A program made the position numbers and the translations under genes. Shown one piece after another: positions 5,397 to 32,728 of a stretch of 41,349 nucleotides of DNA. Below the pieces are notes generated by a model. That model saw only the letters and a list, made by a program, of their open reading frames with translations, had not been told where the DNA came from and searched no databases. Within the stretch, counting starts at the first letter, position 1, and every line of letters begins with the position of its first letter. This DNA comes from a virus: positions 1-41,349 of the IMG/VR virus record IMGVR_UViG_3300013100_000007; one strand, 5' to 3'.

Positions 5397-5414
5397 CTAA
5401 TTGCTAGGGGTTTT
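5388..5414. terminator. Two-way intrinsic terminator between convergent operons
   Basis: An 8-bp perfect stem (AACCCCTA with TAGGGGTT) closes a 9-base loop. It is followed by TTTT on the plus strand and by a T-rich run on the minus strand (complement of the A run at 5378-5389). The plus-strand gene stops at 5396 and the minus-strand gene stops at 5397, both inside the hairpin. Confidence 0.9.
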
Positions 5415-5687
5415 ATACAATAATTTAAGAAATAATGTAAGTGTAGAAACAGAGAATAACATAACAAATAAACCTATAATAATTCCTCTTAAAGGGAAAG
5501 GAATGGAATTAAATGAACAATCTATATTTATTTTAAAATCCCATGTAATAGCATTAATATTATATAATAAAATTATAATTATCATGTTAAAAATAAAAAC
5601 AAATATTCTGTTATAAATAAATATAAATGTTTTAAAAAAAGATAACCTTTTTATTTCGGATTTAAAAAATTCATAATTGTTTTTCAT
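5397..5687 (-). CDS. Membrane protein of the minus-strand operon
   Basis: A 96-residue protein with hydrophobic stretches at about residues 19-45 and 66-90, so two or three membrane segments, and a basic N-terminus. It is the third gene of a minus-strand operon, 2 bases after the preceding gene, and its stop lies in the shared terminator. I do not recognise the family. Small membrane proteins expressed from a separate promoter in the structural region are often superinfection-exclusion or host-change factors, which is only a hypothesis here. Confidence 0.6.
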   Translation of the reverse strand: MKNNYEFFKSEIKRLSFFKTFIFIYNRIFVFIFNMIIIILLYNINAITWDFKINIDCSFNSIPFPLRGIIIGLFVMLFSVSTLTLFLKLLYKTPSN

Positions 5688-5689
5688 AA

Positions 5690-5950
5690 CTATCTATTTA
5701 AAAAATAAGTTACTATAATTACAATTACAACAAAAACAAAAGCCCAAACTTTTTGCAATTGTTTTTTGATTCTTTGATTATCTATATATCTCATAAAATC
5801 ATGAGTTTTTGGATCTGATAGAATAGCATTTAATTTTTTATTTGTTTCTATTCTTTGCGAAATAATTTCACTTTCTTTTACTTCAAGCGAATTAACATAG
5901 TCAATCCCTTCTTGGCTCATTCCGATTTCTTCGTTTAGTGTTGGTTTCAT
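5690..5950 (-). CDS. Tail-anchored small membrane protein
   Basis: An 86-residue protein with a charged helical N-terminal part of about 65 residues and one C-terminal membrane segment (about 67-84, WAFVFVVIVIIVTYFL). That arrangement would leave the soluble part in the cytoplasm. It is the middle gene of the minus-strand operon, with 2-base gaps on both sides. No family recognised. Confidence 0.65.
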   Translation of the reverse strand: MKPTLNEEIGMSQEGIDYVNSLEVKESEIISQRIETNKKLNAILSDPKTHDFMRYIDNQRIKKQLQKVWAFVFVVIVIIVTYFLNR

Positions 5951-5952
5951 AA

Positions 5953-6216
5953 TTACTTGATTATTTCAAAATTATCTTTAAAATATTGTTTAGCTACCAG
6001 CCATTGATCGGAGTAATCTTTTGGATTTCTTGCAATCATATCTCCAATTTTAGGACTCCCGTTATTTTTATCTGCGCCTGAAATAGACACATTATATCCA
6101 AATGGATATCCGATTATATGTATAAATCCGTGATTATGAAACACATCAATATCTGTTTGTGTTACTTGTCTCATTTCAGATATTTGAACTCTTTGGTATT
6201 CTTTAAAATTATTCAT
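5953..6216 (-). CDS. Conserved small phage protein (ARNPxxxxDQWxVAxxYF type)
   Basis: An 87-residue soluble protein and the first gene of the minus-strand operon. Its C-terminal half contains NGSPKxGDMIARNP followed by DQWLVAKQYFxDN. I recall this signature from short uncharacterised proteins of several phage groups that begin with a similar SEMR segment. Function unknown. It is expressed from the promoter at 6328-6357 through a ~100-nt structured leader, which suggests expression independent of the surrounding plus-strand late genes. Confidence 0.65.
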   Translation of the reverse strand: MNNFKEYQRVQISEMRQVTQTDIDVFHNHGFIHIIGYPFGYNVSISGADKNNGSPKIGDMIARNPKDYSDQWLVAKQYFKDNFEIIK

Positions 6217-6222
6217 AATATA

Positions 6223-6322
6223 TTAAAATAAAATTGCCTTCCAAAATCTACAAAGGGTCTGAAGCTTCGTTTCATTCAAAAGGCTAATATTTTTCAGTTA
6301 CCTATAATTCAGACCGTAACTA
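6223..6322 (-). ncRNA. Kissing-loop RNA copy C (leader or small RNA)
   Basis: Read on the minus strand, the transcript begins about 6 bases after a TATATTTG box. Hairpin 1 has a perfect 6-bp stem (plus-strand 6316-6321 with 6296-6301). Its 14-base loop contains GGTCTGAA (plus-strand 6308-6315). A second, longer hairpin follows: outer stem 6275-6284 with 6237-6246, inner stem 6265-6270 with 6250-6255. The inner loop carries TTCAGACC (plus-strand 6256-6263), perfectly complementary to the first loop. The outer stem is followed by a U-rich run, as in an intrinsic terminator. The outer-stem arms share sequence with copy B at 31620-31717, so the two are homologous. Gene 5953-6216 starts only 7 bases further on. 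Confidence 0.75.
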
Positions 6323-6327
6323 CATGG

Positions 6328-6357
6328 CAAATATATTGTGTTTAAAATTATTGACAA
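6328..6357 (-). promoter_or_regulatory. Bacteroidetes-type promoter of the minus-strand operon
   Basis: On the minus strand there is a TTG (plus-strand 6355-6357), 19 bases, then TATATTTG (plus-strand 6328-6335). This matches the -33/-7 consensus of the primary sigma factor of Flavobacterium and Bacteroides. The same 19-base spacing occurs at 17506-17535. Confidence 0.8.
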
Positions 6358-17505: not shown

Positions 17506-17535
17506 TTGTTATATTAAAAATATACTGTATATTTG
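17506..17535 (+). promoter_or_regulatory. Early promoter (TTG, 19 bases, TATATTTG)
   Basis: TTG at 17506-17508 and TATATTTG at 17528-17535 are separated by 19 bases, identical in spacing to the promoter of the minus-strand operon. It lies after two terminators and 22 bases before the first early gene, so it probably drives the early operon. Confidence 0.85.
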
Positions 17536-20537: not shown

Positions 20538-20570
20538 TTGTAATTTGTATATATTTTTTACATATATTTG
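20538..20570 (+). promoter_or_regulatory. Promoter of the XRE regulator operon
   Basis: A TATATTTG box at 20563-20570 follows the terminator of the previous operon. Upstream TTG triplets at 20538 and 20545 give spacings of 22 or 15 bases, less ideal than 19. The box is surrounded by TA-rich repeats (TGTATATAT and ACATATATTTGTACA, 20546-20574) with near two-fold symmetry, which could be the operator of the regulator encoded next. Confidence 0.65.
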
Positions 20571-21551: not shown

Positions 21552-21845
21552 GACTTATCAAAATTTAATTTCCCTAAAGTAGAAAATTTAGCTTTTTCAA
21601 TATTGGATACTATTCCAGAATTACTTGAAGAAGCAAAAAAAAGAAACCCAAAAAAGGGAATGGAAAAATTTAATGAAATATTCTACTCAGGTGGTAAAAT
21701 TTCATTTAAAGAAGATGTTGAGGGAACTTGGAAAGAAAATGCTTTTTTATATGCAAAAGCTTTAATGAAATCTTGGTCGCCAAAACACGAACACAAAGAG
21801 ATTGTTGTTGGGATGATATTTGAAGAATGTTTAATTTTAAACTAA
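21549..21845 (+). CDS. Cassette gene c1, hypothetical
   Basis: A 98-residue protein in the third slot of the first cassette. No relation to the third-slot protein of the second cassette (22760-23137) is visible beyond the shared leader. No motif recognised. Confidence 0.55.
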   Translation: MDLSKFNFPKVENLAFSILDTIPELLEEAKKRNPKKGMEKFNEIFYSGGKISFKEDVEGTWKENAFLYAKALMKSWSPKHEHKEIVVGMIFEECLILN

Positions 21846-21851
21846 ACAACC

Positions 21852-22013
21852 ATGCAAAAGTTAATCACCCAAAACAACAAAACTCTTTTGGAAAAGTTTA
21901 TTCCAGAGAAAGGAAGTGCTTACGAGTATCATTATAAAATGATGTTTACCGATCCGAATGACATTTCATTTAATTATCCATCAAAATACAGTCTTAAAAA
22001 TGGAAACAAATAA
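21852..22013 (+). CDS. Cassette gene d1 (LLEKFIPEKGS)
   Basis: A 53-residue protein. Residues 8-22 (NNKTLLEKFIPEKGS) match the gene at 23149-23277, with an exact 35-base DNA match (21883-21917 and 23180-23214). The C-terminal halves differ. The next gene starts 14 bases before its stop. Confidence 0.5.
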   Translation: MQKLITQNNKTLLEKFIPEKGSAYEYHYKMMFTDPNDISFNYPSKYSLKNGNK

Positions 22014-22341
22014 AGAAAAAGAGTTCTTAGGTTTAAAACAAAAACTGCTTCAAGAAATTGAATATAGATATGAAATTATAAGGCAATTAAGTTGGGATTG
22101 TTCAAAAGAAAAAGGATTTGTACCTAATTTCATTAAGCAATTTTTAAAAATAAAAGAACCAAATGCACCTAATGTGTTTTGGAAAGATAGAGAAACTTAC
22201 GGAAGGTATTTAATTGACCATGACAAAGAACTTCATCAAGACATCATTATTGCATTACAAAAGTCAATAGATAAATTACAAAAAGACTACAACGAAGCTG
22301 ATTTTAACTATTTAAAACCATTTCAAAATGAAACAAATTAA
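22000..22341 (+). CDS. Hypothetical helical protein
   Basis: A 113-residue protein starting with METNKEKEF at 22000, the start that gives the shortest overlap with the upstream gene. It is strongly helical and charged. The stop overlaps the start of the next gene by 14 bases. It has no counterpart in the second cassette. Function unknown. Confidence 0.55.
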   Translation: METNKEKEFLGLKQKLLQEIEYRYEIIRQLSWDCSKEKGFVPNFIKQFLKIKEPNAPNVFWKDRETYGRYLIDHDKELHQDIIIALQKSIDKLQKDYNEADFNYLKPFQNETN

Positions 22342-22543
22342 CGGCCAATACGAACAAGAATCTTTTGAATGCGAAGTAAAGCACGTTCGATCAGAAAAAG
22401 ACGAAAACGAAGAATCTATAAATATTATTAAAGAATCTTTATCACATATAGCTGATTTAAAATTAGGCAATTCGGCGCCATTTCTACTTAGAAGTTTTGA
22501 AGATGAATGTAGAGAATTAATAAAAGAAGCAACAACCATCTAA
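22328..22543 (+). CDS. Cassette gene a2 (ends IKEATTI)
   Basis: A 71-residue acidic protein. Its end (ECRELIKEATTI) matches the end of gene a1, and its first ~88 bases are nearly repeated at 23465-23566. It opens the second copy of the four-gene cassette. Function unknown. Confidence 0.55.
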   Translation: MKQINGQYEQESFECEVKHVRSEKDENEESINIIKESLSHIADLKLGNSAPFLLRSFEDECRELIKEATTI

Positions 22544-22762: not shown

Positions 22763-23137
22763 AAATTAACCGCAGAAAATGTAAATCGTATATTCTTAGA
22801 ATGTATGTTTGAACAAGGAGAATCAACCGAAAATTACATATTAGGTCAAGGTGTAATAACCAATGTTGGTTTTCATCCCGAAAGATTGAAACAAAACGAA
22901 CAGAACGTTTCTGAAATGCTTAATCAATTACCTGAAGAATTTAAAAAGGAATTAGGCGGAGGAATGAGTTTTTTAAATATGTGCAATGATAAAGATGGAA
23001 ATCAATGGAGCGATCTATATGCAACAATGGATCAATTGATAACTTTGGGTATTTCTTTAAATAAAGTCAAATTTTTAATGCCTAGAGAAATGTGGTCTGT
23101 TTTACCTGGCGGAATGCCGTATATTGTTGTACTGTAA
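22760..23137 (+). CDS. Cassette gene c2, hypothetical
   Basis: A 125-residue protein. The pattern NVNRIFLECMFEQGES, then GFHPERLKQN and LLxMCNDKDGNQWSDLY-like segments (FLNMCNDKDGNQWSDLY), resembles uncharacterised phage proteins I have seen in several phyla. It fills the third slot of the second cassette and is unrelated to gene c1. Confidence 0.6.
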   Translation: MKLTAENVNRIFLECMFEQGESTENYILGQGVITNVGFHPERLKQNEQNVSEMLNQLPEEFKKELGGGMSFLNMCNDKDGNQWSDLYATMDQLITLGISLNKVKFLMPREMWSVLPGGMPYIVVL

Positions 23138-23148
23138 ATTTTTAAATC

Positions 23149-23277
23149 ATGAAAAACCTCATCGCTAAAAACAACAAGGCTCTTTTGGAAAAGTTTATTC
23201 CAGAGAAAGGAAGTTTACCTGAAAAAGAAACAAAATCAACTGTTATTAATTGGTATTTTAAAATTTACCTAAACTAA
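23149..23277 (+). CDS. Cassette gene d2 (LLEKFIPEKGS)
   Basis: A 42-residue protein whose first half (NNKALLEKFIPEKGS) matches gene d1 while the second half is different. It contains the second copy of the exact 35-base repeat (23180-23214). Function unknown. Confidence 0.5.
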   Translation: MKNLIAKNNKALLEKFIPEKGSLPEKETKSTVINWYFKIYLN

Positions 23278-23464: not shown

Positions 23465-23566
23465 ATGAAACAAATTAACGACCAATACGAACAAGAATCT
23501 TTTGAATGCGAAGGAAAACACATTCTATCAGAAAAAGACGAAAACGAAGAATTTCTTTTTGTATGA
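23465..23566 (+). CDS. Truncated duplicate of cassette gene a2
   Basis: A 33-residue reading frame whose first ~88 bases are a near copy (about five or six differences) of 22328-22415. After the shared DENEE the frame runs into unrelated sequence and stops. It is likely a leftover of duplication, retained because its ATG and coupling to the next gene are useful. Whether the peptide has a function is unknown. Confidence 0.45.
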   Translation: MKQINDQYEQESFECEGKHILSEKDENEEFLFV

Positions 23567-24860: not shown

Positions 24861-24868
24861 TATATTTG
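24861..24868 (+). promoter_or_regulatory. TATATTTG -7 box upstream of RNA copy A
   Basis: The box is a perfect match to the Bacteroidetes -7 consensus and lies 6 bases after the previous stop codon. No exact TTG is found 19 bases upstream, only a T-rich stretch. Confidence 0.65.
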
Positions 24869-24871
24869 TCT

Positions 24872-24975
24872 TAAGTATTGAGGTGAGAGCCAATGCAAAA
24901 TATAAAGAAATTTAATCCATAATAGGGCGGGCGCTCTCACATTTAGCCCTAACTATTATGGATTTTTTATTTTTA
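24872..24975 (+). ncRNA. Kissing-loop RNA copy A (leader or small RNA)
   Basis: Hairpin 1 has the stem GTATTG (24875-24880) with CAATGC (24891-24896), one G-T pair. Its loop carries GTGAGAGC (24883-24890). The second structure has an outer stem of 11-12 bp (24914-24925 with 24953-24964) and an inner GGGC/GCCC stem (near 24925-24928 and 24946-24949). The inner loop contains GCTCTCAC (24933-24940), exactly complementary to the first loop. A strong T run follows the outer stem, as in an intrinsic terminator. The architecture is the same as in copies B and C, with a different loop sequence. The next gene starts at 24996. Confidence 0.78.
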
Positions 24976-24995: not shown

Positions 24996-25220
24996 ATGAA
25001 ACACACTTTAACTTCTCAATTATCTGGTTCAGAAGATGTAAAATATGATATTTACGCATTAGAATTAGATTCGGACACTATAAACATTGGCATAGAAAGA
25101 ACAGACTTTTTAAAAAGCCATTTGTCTAATCAAATTTGTATTAATTTAAATAAAAAAGAACTCCACTCATTTATAGGCACATTACTTCATATTCAATCAA
25201 AAATGAAAGGAGGTAAATAA
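24996..25220 (+). CDS. Small hypothetical protein before the replication initiator
   Basis: A 74-residue protein with alternating polar and hydrophobic segments and a helical end. It is the first gene after the structured RNA and its stop overlaps the start of the initiator gene by one base (TAATG). No family recognised. Confidence 0.55.
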   Translation: MKHTLTSQLSGSEDVKYDIYALELDSDTINIGIERTDFLKSHLSNQICINLNKKELHSFIGTLLHIQSKMKGGK

Positions 25221-25903
25221 TGGCCGAGAATAAAAAATCATTCGTTTTGTATGCTGATCTAATAAAAAGCATAGAGCATTTAACAAATGAAGAAAAAGGA
25301 ATTTTATTTAATCATTTGTTAGAATATGTAAATGATAAAAATCCTATACTGGAGGATAGATTAGTATTGACAGCTTGGAAGCCAATAGAGTTACAGTTAA
25401 AAAGGGACCTTATTAAATTTGAAGAAGTTAAGGCTAAAAGAAGTGGTGCAGGAAAGCGTTCAGCAGAATTGAGAGCATTAAAATTAGAAGAACAAACCTC
25501 AACAAATCCAACAAGTGTTGAAAGTGTTGAACAAACCTCAACAAATCCAACTGTAAATGATACTGTTACTGTAAATGTAAATGATACTGTTACTGTAAAT
25601 GTAATAAAAGAAAATAATAAGGCTTTGCCTTTTAAATTTTTTGATTCATTGATAGATTTGGGGGCCGAAAAACAATTAGTATCCGATTGGATAGCTGTAA
25701 GGAAATCAAAGAGGCTATCAAATACAGTAACCGCGTTTGATAATTTTAAAAATGAAGTATCAAAATCAGGAAAAAACATTAATGATGTACTTAAAGAATG
25801 TGTTATTAATTCTTGGGGTGGCTTTAGAGCTGAATGGATTAAAGAAAATTTAGTTAAGCAATTGTATAAAAGTCCAACCGACCCAAAAAGACCAAGATCA
25901 TGA
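25220..25903 (+). CDS. DUF6291-type replication initiator-like protein
   Basis: A 227-residue protein. The N-terminal ~75 residues (FVLYADLIKSIEHLTNEEKGILFNHLLEYVND, then AWKPIELQLKRD) match the DUF6291 domain found in phage proteins that sit where initiators or helicase loaders sit. A basic segment and a low-complexity Thr/Asn/Val linker (about residues 90-132) are followed by a helical C-terminal domain. The linker is encoded by direct DNA repeats that look like iterons. It overlaps the primase-helicase gene by 4 bases (ATGA), so it probably marks the origin and recruits that helicase. Confidence 0.7.
   Translation: MAENKKSFVLYADLIKSIEHLTNEEKGILFNHLLEYVNDKNPILEDRLVLTAWKPIELQLKRDLIKFEEVKAKRSGAGKRSAELRALKLEEQTSTNPTSVESVEQTSTNPTVNDTVTVNVNDTVTVNVIKENNKALPFKFFDSLIDLGAEKQLVSDWIAVRKSKRLSNTVTAFDNFKNEVSKSGKNINDVLKECVINSWGGFRAEWIKENLVKQLYKSPTDPKRPRS
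25490..25600 (+). repeat. Iteron-like repeats inside the initiator gene (candidate origin)
   Basis: Three repeat families lie end to end. A 23-bp exact direct repeat is at 25490-25512 and 25529-25551. A 9-bp tandem (AAGTGTTGA) is at 25513-25530. A 24-bp exact tandem repeat is at 25553-25576 and 25577-25600. An AT-rich stretch follows. Lambda and many other phages carry the replication origin as iterons within the initiator gene. Confidence 0.6.
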
Positions 25904-27711
25904 GTAATATTCATAATTGGGACCTGATAGTTACAAATAAGGTTTCAGGAACAGCAAAATTAAAATGTCCTGTTTGTGGTCCAGAAAGAAAAAATAAATC
26001 GGACAAAAGCCTTTATATTAATTTTAATTCTGGAGTAGCTAAGTGTTTCCATTGTGATGGATTGTTTTTCAAAGAAAGTATTGAAAGAAAAGTAGAAAAA
26101 GAAAATTTTACTTTGCCTACCCAGAATTGGAAAAATTATACTCAGCTTTCAGACCAAGTGGTTAAATATTTTGAGGGACGTAAAATACAGCAATACACAT
26201 TAAAGGCTTTTGAAATTACTGAGGAAAAATATTATCAACCTCAACTAAGTAAAGAAGTAAATAATATTGTTTTTAATTATTTCGAGGGCGAAACACTTGT
26301 AAATAAAAAATATAGATCAGGAGGTAAAAAATTCACGCAATCAAAAAACGCCAAATCTATTTTTTACAATTTAAATTCAATAATAGGCCAAGATGAATGC
26401 TATATTGTTGAAGGAGAAATTGATGTTCTTTCACTTTATGAGATTGGGATTAAAAACTGTATATCTGTTCCGAACGGGGCCAATGACAATGATAATTATT
26501 GGATAAATTCAGAGACTTACATCAAGGATATTAAAAAATTCTATATAGCTACTGATAACGATTCAAAAGGCGATGAGGTAGCCGAAAAGATAGCTCAGCG
26601 TTTAGGACGTTACAGATGTGAGAGAATTATTTTTGAGGGTAAAGACGCAAACGAGGACCTGATAAACGGAGTCTTAGAAAAAACAATTCGAAATACAGTA
26701 AAATATCCAGTTGCAGGAACTTTTAAAGTTTCGGATTGTTATGATGATATTGTGGCCCTGCATGAAAATGGATTGCCCGAAACTATTTATCCTAAACATT
26801 CATGCTTTGGACCTCTTAAAGAAATATTTTCTGTTATGCGTGGCCACTTGATTACAGGAACTGGAATACCATCACATGGGAAGTCTAATTTTACAGAATG
26901 GTACGTTTTAAATTTGGTCCGAGATTACAATATGAAAGCATCATTTTTCAGTCCTGAACATCATCCTTTCGCATTACATCATACTACGTTCATTGAAAAA
27001 TCAGTCGGGGCCAATTTTTGGAGAGATAATGAAGATTGCAAAAGAGTTAATCGTTACGATATCGCCAAATACCACGAATGGGCCGAAGAAAAAATTTATC
27101 TAACTGGCACCGAAAACGGAGAATTTCCAACTTGGGATTGGCTATTTGAAAAATTCAAAGAACAATTGTTTAATTACGGAATAGATATTTTTGTAATTGA
27201 TGCTTTTAACAAGCTCGGATTTAATGGAAAAGGGAATAAGTTGGACCAAATTAATCAGGTCCTAACAAAGCTAACAATGTTCGCTCAAATGAACAACGTA
27301 ATTATTTTCTTGGTGGCCCATCCTACAAAAATGCAAAAGGATGCTTCTGGCCTATATGGATCGCCAACACTTTATGATGTATCTGGAAGTTCAGATTTCA
27401 GAAACCAAACACATGACGGATTTAGTATTTACAGATTCTTTGGTGATGATAATAATGAGCCGAGAACCGTTTTTGAAAATCTTAAGACTAAAATGAAATT
27501 TCAGGGTGAAATTGGGGGCCAAGTTGAATTTCAATATCACATACCATCTGGTCGTTATTATGTAATGGGACAAGAAGCTCCAAGATTTGTAATGTGGGAA
27601 GAAGAAACGGAAATAAAAGAATTTAACGATTCTGGACCAGAATTGCCAAAAGTAAATCCTATTGATGCTTTTGGAGAAGATTACAACGATGATGCAGACG
27701 TTCCATTTTAA
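25900..27711 (+). CDS. TOPRIM primase-helicase (T7 gp4-like architecture)
   Basis: A 603-residue protein. A zinc-binding primase finger is seen (CPVC at 23-26 and CFHC at 49-52). A TOPRIM domain follows, with YIVEGEIDVLSL at about 168-179 and ATDNDSKGD near 217-225. Then comes a DnaB-type RecA domain with Walker A GTGIPSHGKSN at about 320-330 and a Walker B IDIFVIDAF near 434. This should prime and unwind DNA at the fork. The C-terminus is acidic and ends NDDADVPF, like the Phe-ended tails of T7 gp4 and SSB that bind partners. No phage DNA polymerase is encoded here, so the partner may be a host protein. Confidence 0.88.
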   Translation: MSNIHNWDLIVTNKVSGTAKLKCPVCGPERKNKSDKSLYINFNSGVAKCFHCDGLFFKESIERKVEKENFTLPTQNWKNYTQLSDQVVKYFEGRKIQQYTLKAFEITEEKYYQPQLSKEVNNIVFNYFEGETLVNKKYRSGGKKFTQSKNAKSIFYNLNSIIGQDECYIVEGEIDVLSLYEIGIKNCISVPNGANDNDNYWINSETYIKDIKKFYIATDNDSKGDEVAEKIAQRLGRYRCERIIFEGKDANEDLINGVLEKTIRNTVKYPVAGTFKVSDCYDDIVALHENGLPETIYPKHSCFGPLKEIFSVMRGHLITGTGIPSHGKSNFTEWYVLNLVRDYNMKASFFSPEHHPFALHHTTFIEKSVGANFWRDNEDCKRVNRYDIAKYHEWAEEKIYLTGTENGEFPTWDWLFEKFKEQLFNYGIDIFVIDAFNKLGFNGKGNKLDQINQVLTKLTMFAQMNNVIIFLVAHPTKMQKDASGLYGSPTLYDVSGSSDFRNQTHDGFSIYRFFGDDNNEPRTVFENLKTKMKFQGEIGGQVEFQYHIPSGRYYVMGQEAPRFVMWEEETEIKEFNDSGPELPKVNPIDAFGEDYNDDADVPF

Positions 27712-31607: not shown

Positions 31608-31615
31608 TATATTTG
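31608..31615 (+). promoter_or_regulatory. TATATTTG -7 box upstream of RNA copy B
   Basis: The box is a perfect -7 match 8 bases after the ninG stop codon. The upstream -33 TTG is not clearly present. Confidence 0.65.
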
Positions 31616-31619
31616 AAAT

Positions 31620-31717
31620 ACATTAGTTCGTCCGACATTAGAACTTAACCGAACAGCCTTTTTAAATGAAACTACCCGTCGGACGGTAGCCGATTTTAGA
31701 AAGGCATTTTTATTTTA
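31620..31717 (+). ncRNA. Kissing-loop RNA copy B (leader or small RNA)
   Basis: Hairpin 1 has the stem AGTTC (31625-31629) with GAACT (31641-31645) and its loop holds GTCCGAC (31630-31636). The second structure has an 11-bp outer stem (GCCTTTTTAAA at 31656-31666 with 31695-31705) and an inner stem CTACC (31672-31676) with GGTAG (31685-31689). Its loop carries GTCGGAC (31678-31684), the exact complement of the first loop; the match extends to 8 bp with flanking bases. A T-rich run follows. The arms of the outer stem match those of copy C. The methyltransferase start codon at 31723 lies only 6 bases downstream. Confidence 0.78.
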
Positions 31718-31722
31718 AACTT

Positions 31723-32367
31723 ATGCAGATTACAGATAAATTATTAATCACAAACGAAGATAACATGCAGTTAATGGCTCGTTATCCTGATAATTATTTC
31801 GATTTGGCTATTGTTGACCCTCCTTATGGAATTGGAATAGATGGAAAAAAAAAATCTAAAAACAAAAACCCTAAACATAATCGTAAAGAACATGTAAAAA
31901 AAGATTGGGATAATGAAATCCCGTCTGCTGAATATTTCAAAGAATTATTTAGAGTAAGTAAAAATCAAATAGTTTTCGGAGGCAATTATTTTACTGAATT
32001 TCTACATCCAGTTAAAAGTTGGATATTTTGGTTTAAAGGTCAAAATGATTTAACTATGTCTGATGGGGAATTGATTTGGACTAATTTACCGATAGTAACA
32101 AGACAATTTACTGTAAATAGAGCACAATTAAATAAACAAGACACCTTTCATCCAACCGAAAAGCCTTATAAAGTTTATAAGCATATTTTAACAAAGTTTG
32201 CAAAAAACGGAATGAAAAGACTAGATACTCATTTAGGCTCAGGAAGTATTGCTGTTGCTTGCCACGATTATGATTTTGAATTAACAGCATGTGAATTAGA
32301 TCCTGATTATTATAATGCAGCTATTAAACGCATTAAAAACCATATTGGCCAGCAAAAACTATTTTAA
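31723..32367 (+). CDS. Orphan DNA methyltransferase (N6-adenine or N4-cytosine, beta class)
   Basis: A 214-residue enzyme. The catalytic motif DPPY is at residues 32-35 and the S-adenosylmethionine-binding motif (DTHLGSGSIAVAC, then ELTACELDPDYY) comes near the C-terminus. This order defines the beta group of amino-methyltransferases. There is no restriction enzyme beside it, so it probably protects phage DNA from host restriction or marks it for regulation. It is preceded by structured RNA copy B. Confidence 0.88.
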   Translation: MQITDKLLITNEDNMQLMARYPDNYFDLAIVDPPYGIGIDGKKKSKNKNPKHNRKEHVKKDWDNEIPSAEYFKELFRVSKNQIVFGGNYFTEFLHPVKSWIFWFKGQNDLTMSDGELIWTNLPIVTRQFTVNRAQLNKQDTFHPTEKPYKVYKHILTKFAKNGMKRLDTHLGSGSIAVACHDYDFELTACELDPDYYNAAIKRIKNHIGQQKLF

Positions 32368-32509: not shown

Positions 32510-32728
32510 ATGAAAACACATTGTACTTGCATTCATTTTGAAGCAAATTGTTTTACTGGAAGTTGCAAGTATTGTAATTATCCACCGAAAACATTAAAAG
32601 AAAATAGAGGCGGTAAACGTGAAAACGCAGGTCGCCCAAAAGGTATTGAGACAACAACTATACGTATTCCAACTGTCTTAAAGCCAATAATTGAACGATA
32701 CATAAAAATAAAAATGTTAAAGTTTTGA
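32510..32728 (+). CDS. Small zinc-knuckle protein with GRPKG motif
   Basis: A 72-residue protein. The N-terminus has CTCIHFEANCFTGSCKYCNYPP, a multi-Cys site. The middle is GGKRENAGRPKGIETTTIRIP, a motif common in phage DNA-binding proteins that end in a ribbon-helix-helix-like TTTIRIPxxL segment. It is likely a nucleic-acid-binding protein. Confidence 0.55.
   Translation: MKTHCTCIHFEANCFTGSCKYCNYPPKTLKENRGGKRENAGRPKGIETTTIRIPTVLKPIIERYIKIKMLKF

Follow-up and report, generated by a model that had tools for sequence, protein, structure and literature searches.

The window analysed here, 41,349 bases, is the whole of the virus record IMGVR_UViG_3300013100_000007, which has a 123-bp end repeat and whose nearest named relatives are Flavobacterium phages. 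On its plus strand, the gene coding for an N6/N4 DNA methyltransferase (31723..32367, ATG at 31723; Pfam PF01555, E 2.4e-11; PHROG 67) is preceded by a leader, copy B, for which the sequence and the minimum-energy fold gave two hairpins. The promoter -7 element TATATTTG (31608..31615, predicted +1 at 31620) is followed by hairpin 1, which starts at +6 (31625..31645; AGTTC / GAACT, loop GTCCGACATTA), by a terminator-like hairpin, P2 (31656..31705), and by a T-rich tail (31706..31717). P2 is composed of an outer stem of 11 bp, a non-canonical internal loop UGAAA/CCGAU and an inner stem of 5 bp. The earlier note had described complementary loops, two hairpins and a T run ahead of the ATG at this place, and the two loops indeed hold exact complements: the kissing segment L1, GTCCGAC (31630..31636), found once on the plus strand of the window, and the segment L2, GTCGGAC (31678..31684), in the apical loop of P2.

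Two other copies in the window share this organisation of hairpin 1, linker and terminator-like hairpin, and in every copy the apical loop exactly complements the hairpin-1 loop over 7-8 nt. Copy A, on the plus strand, has the -7 element TATATTTG at 24861..24868, hairpin 1 at 24875..24896 (GTATTG / CAATGC, loop AG followed by GTGAGAGC), with L1 GTGAGAGC at 24883-24890, and a terminator-like hairpin at 24914..24964 (internal loop GGC/UAA), with L2 GCTCTCAC at 24933-24940. Behind it lies an operon (24996..27711, plus strand) coding for a 74-aa protein, a DUF6291/primosomal protein and a Toprim primase-helicase. Copy C, on the minus strand, has the -7 element TATATTTG at 6328..6335 (reading from 6335 to 6328), a leader at 6223..6323 whose T-rich tail lies ahead of the ATG at 6216, L1 GGTCTGAA at 6315-6308 and L2 TTCAGACC at 6263-6256; its operon (5397..6216, minus strand) codes for three small proteins of unknown function, two of them with likely membrane segments. 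The pairs GTGAGAGC/GCTCTCAC and GGTCTGAA/TTCAGACC are complementary and differ from that of copy B, in agreement with the earlier note, and the two hairpins were present in the minimum-energy folds of all three copies (z -2.9, -3.6, -1.8). In the long stem of each copy, non-canonical pairs form a symmetric internal loop, with a UGA/GAU core in copies B and C, and copy A belongs to another sub-type than B and C, the spacing of its two loops being exchanged. Upstream of copy A we observed two pairs of near-duplicate stretches among small genes, 22328-22415 with 23465-23552 (94%) and 21828-21917 with 23125-23214 (79%), which suggests a tandem duplication of small early genes.

The arrangement was searched for with a detector requiring a complement of at least 7 nt between a hairpin loop and the loop of a longer, T-tailed hairpin; a match was called promoted when TAnnTTTG was present 14-32 nt upstream of the first segment. 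The promoted matches in the window were exactly copies A, B and C, and none was obtained in 200 dinucleotide shuffles of the window. Unpromoted matches arose by chance at 0.26 per shuffled window, and one promoterless match, TACTTGCA at 32571 on the minus strand, is at the level expected by chance. IMG/VR loci were then gathered as relatives of three query genes (methyltransferase, primase and phage helicase), and 215 phage loci (2.16 Mb) contained 51 distinct promoted elements, against 0 in two shuffled replicates. With further loci added, the final catalogue comprised 96 distinct elements, which fall into 67 clusters and show 56 distinct loop pairs. The family is spread over Flavobacterium phages (hattifnatt, snusmum, hemulen, lillamy, tooticki and 11b), Cellulophaga phages, among which phi19:1, and metagenomic viruses. 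The phi19:1 element precedes gp030, a small gene located two places ahead of an HNH insertion and the primase, which is the place of copy A in the window, but the loop pair of the phi19:1 element (GTACGAC) is unrelated and its loop spacing is the other one. No element was found in the regions examined of elemoA, Elizabethkingia TCUEAP2 and Bacteroides LoVEphage, and a strict DNA pattern derived from copies B and C, which was too specific, had no match in IMG/VR. In Cellulophaga phage Nekkels_1, a 9-nt complement with a promoter before the portal gene (L008:13582) might be a divergent member, but part of this complementary segment could already be paired by hairpin 1.

The promoter consensus of F. 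johnsoniae, TAHHTTTG, has its G at -5 (PMC6847099), and since hairpin 1 begins 4-6 nt past TTTG in 43 of the 67 clusters, its start would correspond to about +1 to +3. In the window, three of the seven intergenic TAHHTTTG promoters carry the leader. Two more TATATTTG promoters, at 17528 and 20563, have ordinary leaders; the second lies ahead of an HTH regulator gene at 20568, whose plain promoter is without the two-hairpin leader and which is a candidate early regulator.

The leader is ~96 nt long (about 95-100), with an A/U-rich linker of 10-20 nt between hairpin 1 and P2. The kissing segments have a G+C content of 58%, compared to 32% for the whole elements, the median energy of the kissing duplex is -11.5 kcal/mol, and G-U pairs are almost never used in it. 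In the commonest sub-type, type II (copies B and C), loop 1 consists of 8 nt plus 6 nt (ANNATA) and loop 2 of 2 nt (mostly AA) plus 8 nt. The spacing is reversed in type I (copy A, hemulen), with AA plus 8 nt in loop 1 and 8 nt plus ~5 nt in loop 2. In both types, the lengths of the shorter and the longer spacer presumably fit what is generally expected of strands that span the deep and the shallow groove of a pseudoknot helix. Additional sub-types have two 9-nt loops complementary throughout, for example ACTGGAACT/AGTTCCAGT, and the tails of type I are interrupted at times (GGGATTTAACTTTTT). The P2 internal loop is symmetric with purine-rich mismatches (UGAA/GGAU, GGA/AAA); a kink-turn or SECIS reading of its UGA/GA motif was rejected, the loop being symmetric and without a 3-nt bulge.

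Some members depart from these forms. In a third recurrent sub-type, likely a separate sub-family, GAGTAGAG/CTCGAAA flanks the apical loop (L096:155-259 on the minus strand, L186:3291-3400 and L068:4005-4097). In L091:9955-10053, L106:4628-4728 and L143:8476-8574, a linker of 31-34 nt is able to form an extra small hairpin, with the 7-nt kiss kept. In type I, the sequence of hairpin 1 is often ATG AAG TGA or ATG ACG TGA (L004:6498-6506, L401-L432), a possible two-codon mini-ORF that is probably a by-product of the stem and loop constraints.

Conservation of the loop pairing was examined with a covariance model of four clean members, blind to this pairing and with the tail (T run) left out; the four-member model was chosen since MAFFT misregistered mixed sub-types. 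It gave 39 matches, of which 38 kept the loop pairing (6-10 pairs). Among these 38, the loop was shifted by the model in three (GTGAGATTTA/TAAATCTCAC or close) and one more showed GGGCAT/ATGCCC, these four shifted or short matches being judged by eye. The match without loop pairing was L069 (E 0.44). True matches had at least 5 T within the next 11 nt, although the model ended before the T run. Similarly, a DNA pattern for the P2 core, which fixes the first two letters (GT) of its kissing segment, matched at least 120 stretches, and among the matches listed a kiss of 7-9 nt was present in 39/39 of those with promoter and T run, compared to 1/29 of those with neither; a pattern for the other sub-type gave a kiss in 18/18 and 0/2, respectively. 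In these three independent tests, homologues lacking loop complementarity, which the earlier note had named as an observation that would contradict it, amount to a single model match and to none of the matches listed with promoter and T run; the tests did not contradict the note.

Across the helices, two-sided changes were counted in 26 of 29 pairs and 98.4% of cells were paired, compared to 72% in shuffles and at most 50% in slid controls. In the kissing helix, two-sided changes were present at 7 of the 8 pairs and one-sided changes at none, in agreement with the earlier note, which had read from three copies a pairing kept while the letters change. The element is a real RNA family, and its structure of two hairpins joined by a kiss is near certain. 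A search of 397 Flavobacteriaceae genomes with the covariance model, with 11 candidates scored per genome, gave two weak matches, neither with a kiss by the detector; the family may be absent from the host chromosomes.

An ORF starts 5-53 nt after P2 in 66 of the 67 clusters, the order being promoter, terminator and coding sequence, all on the same strand. The downstream products, in a list biased by the sampling around the three query genes, are DUF6291/primosomal proteins, helicases, NUMOD4/HNH endonucleases, N6/N4 methyltransferases, ERF, ParB-like and GIY-YIG proteins, and also replication initiators. The promoter directly upstream, this near-universal gene downstream, the sub-types and the spread over phages were absent from the earlier note. 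The two hairpins, the kiss, the covariation of every helix, the promoter, the T run and the gene position were all shown by computation.

On balance we favour, as the somewhat more probable reading, a transcription attenuator close to the promoter: the family would consist of cis-acting 5' leaders of Bacteroidetes phages, whose terminator an intramolecular kiss would lock to the 5' end of the RNA. The leader would then probably decide whether the next gene is transcribed. The host RNA polymerase would start at the TAnnTTTG promoter and hairpin 1 would fold first, from about +1 to +6. Past the linker, the apical loop of the intrinsic terminator would form 7-9 Watson-Crick pairs with the loop of hairpin 1, and this kissing helix, within the same molecule, would lock both hairpins into one compact fold. 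Without further signal, transcription would presumably terminate at the T run, at about 95-100 nt and just 5' of the start codon of a gene of replication, recombination or DNA modification. The operon would be turned on by read-through, which a phage factor or a modified polymerase would probably allow at a later stage, and our guess for the releasing factor is a phage antiterminator made from the plain promoters.

Control of termination by an intramolecular kiss fits best. We infer that the kiss is intramolecular because of the linker length and the strand spacing, and it would favour termination rather than oppose it because it is compatible with P2. Strong, G+C-rich and almost purely Watson-Crick, it looks like an architectural lock, and against a switch, an 8-bp G+C-rich kiss looks constitutive. 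Inspection of the linker and P2 revealed no antiterminator hairpin common to all members; a linker-P2 pairing (AAGG/CCTT), considered as an antiterminator, occurs in some members and is lost in others such as L053 and L075. The T run and its short spacing to the ATG could instead be a translation feature, and the interrupted tails of some type I members also speak against attenuation.

Gene control in Bacteroidetes phages, which are abundant in water and gut, is almost uncharted, and the leader is a sequence-defined regulatory RNA found at up to three operons per genome. It comes with a built-in experiment, as loop swaps should show at once whether the kiss sets termination. Hypervariable in sequence but strict in their pairing, the loops lend themselves as orthogonal parts to expression control in Bacteroidetes, and they would offer a way to study whether phages infecting the same cell steer clear of RNA cross-talk or make use of it.

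The family is apparently undescribed, as the earlier note had supposed. Rfam 15 gave no match in the window at a relevant score and nothing relevant at E up to 5, nor any match at gathering score in 16 loci; Flavo-1, Bacteroidales-1, Bacteroid-trp and 6S-flavo of Rfam share the phylum with the leader and are not matched by it. No paper on such an element was found in a literature search mostly outside subscription journals. In pT181/pIP501-type attenuators a distinct antisense RNA provides the partner loop; they resemble the leader by their 5' position, upstream hairpin, promoter-proximal intrinsic terminator and loop-loop contacts, whereas the leader family holds both partner loops in one transcript. 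The ColE1 RNA I/RNA II kissing loops act in intermolecular antisense control of replication priming and share with the leader fully complementary loops of 7-9 nt, the sub-type with two 9-nt loops being the closest. In purine riboswitches, two leader hairpins also kiss intramolecularly with a terminator at the leader end, but their loops are conserved around a ligand pocket, whereas the kiss of the leader family is hypervariable and an aptamer core is not evident.

The nearest system in address and size is HK022 put. The putL RNA forms two stem-loops, with pairing from +3 directly behind an early phage promoter, over about 70 nt (PMC9378689). The leader shares with putL/putR its phage origin, the two stem-loops right behind an early promoter and a presumed cis action on transcription; it differs by its terminator-like hairpin with T run and by its kiss, and put, unlike the leader family, has a conserved sequence and belongs to a lambdoid phage.

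It is possible, but in our view unlikely, that the leader serves chiefly to confer stability or acts as a stable small RNA. Beginning with hairpin 1 and ending with the terminator, the two being joined by the kiss, it would either resist nucleases itself or protect the read-through mRNA. The strong kiss, a hairpin 1 that begins close to the transcript start (about +1 to +3 in most clusters) and a T run that closes a 95-nt unit are what such an RNA would show; against this, the downstream gene tied to 66 of the 67 clusters would be needless for a free-standing sRNA, and there is no conserved single-stranded seed, the loops being hypervariable and consumed by the kiss. A put-like antiterminator, in which the kissed RNA would bind its own polymerase, stop P2 from terminating and give processivity, is distinctly improbable. 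The resemblance in address and size to putL, and a kiss that would keep two stems side by side, speak for it, but put lacks a terminator of its own, and its structure paper (PMC9378689) mentions no kissing pair.

The kiss can change fast. Between leaders 90-95% identical, kissing sites differed at 0.138 per site compared to 0.063 elsewhere (10 non-independent pairs), and no kiss change was seen in 16 pairs more than 95% identical. The changes often comprised two compensated pairs at once (L237/L242, L244/L338 and hemulen/snusmum), and such double switches occur between leaders otherwise about 92% identical. Hemulen and snusmum are sister phages that share the host Flavobacterium LMO6, and at a syntenic leader they differ by two compensated kissing pairs, which make up 4 of about 12 substitutions. 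Only tentatively, and as an unlikely case, do we consider the broader proposal of a large undescribed family of self-addressed RNAs, in which the two-hairpin scaffold is fixed while the kiss, a "password" free to evolve, is orthogonal from one locus to the next and among phages of the same host. With diversifying selection on this password, such RNAs would gate phage replication genes as a cis antiterminator or a dose sensor.

Transcripts of the same locus might otherwise dimerise via both loop pairs, or a terminated copy might block the nascent kiss, giving a dose-dependent autoregulation in which private loops would separate loci and rival phages. We hold this to be very unlikely: the loops do differ inside every genome and the compensated switches agree with it, but the linker lengths allow an intramolecular kiss, which would be favoured at low concentration. 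The earlier note had proposed private loops as a means against cross-talk between copies; in all 19 unique pairs taken within genomes, loop cross-complements stayed below 5 nt, but this orthogonality was not significant (permutation p about 0.08-0.09), and the proposal is only suggestive. Finally, short inverted repeats do arise by chance in A+T-rich DNA, but an origin of the element in chance or in a DNA-level signal is extremely improbable, with 0 promoted matches in shuffles, and protein-operator repeats are excluded because the helices and the kiss covary with unrelated letters.
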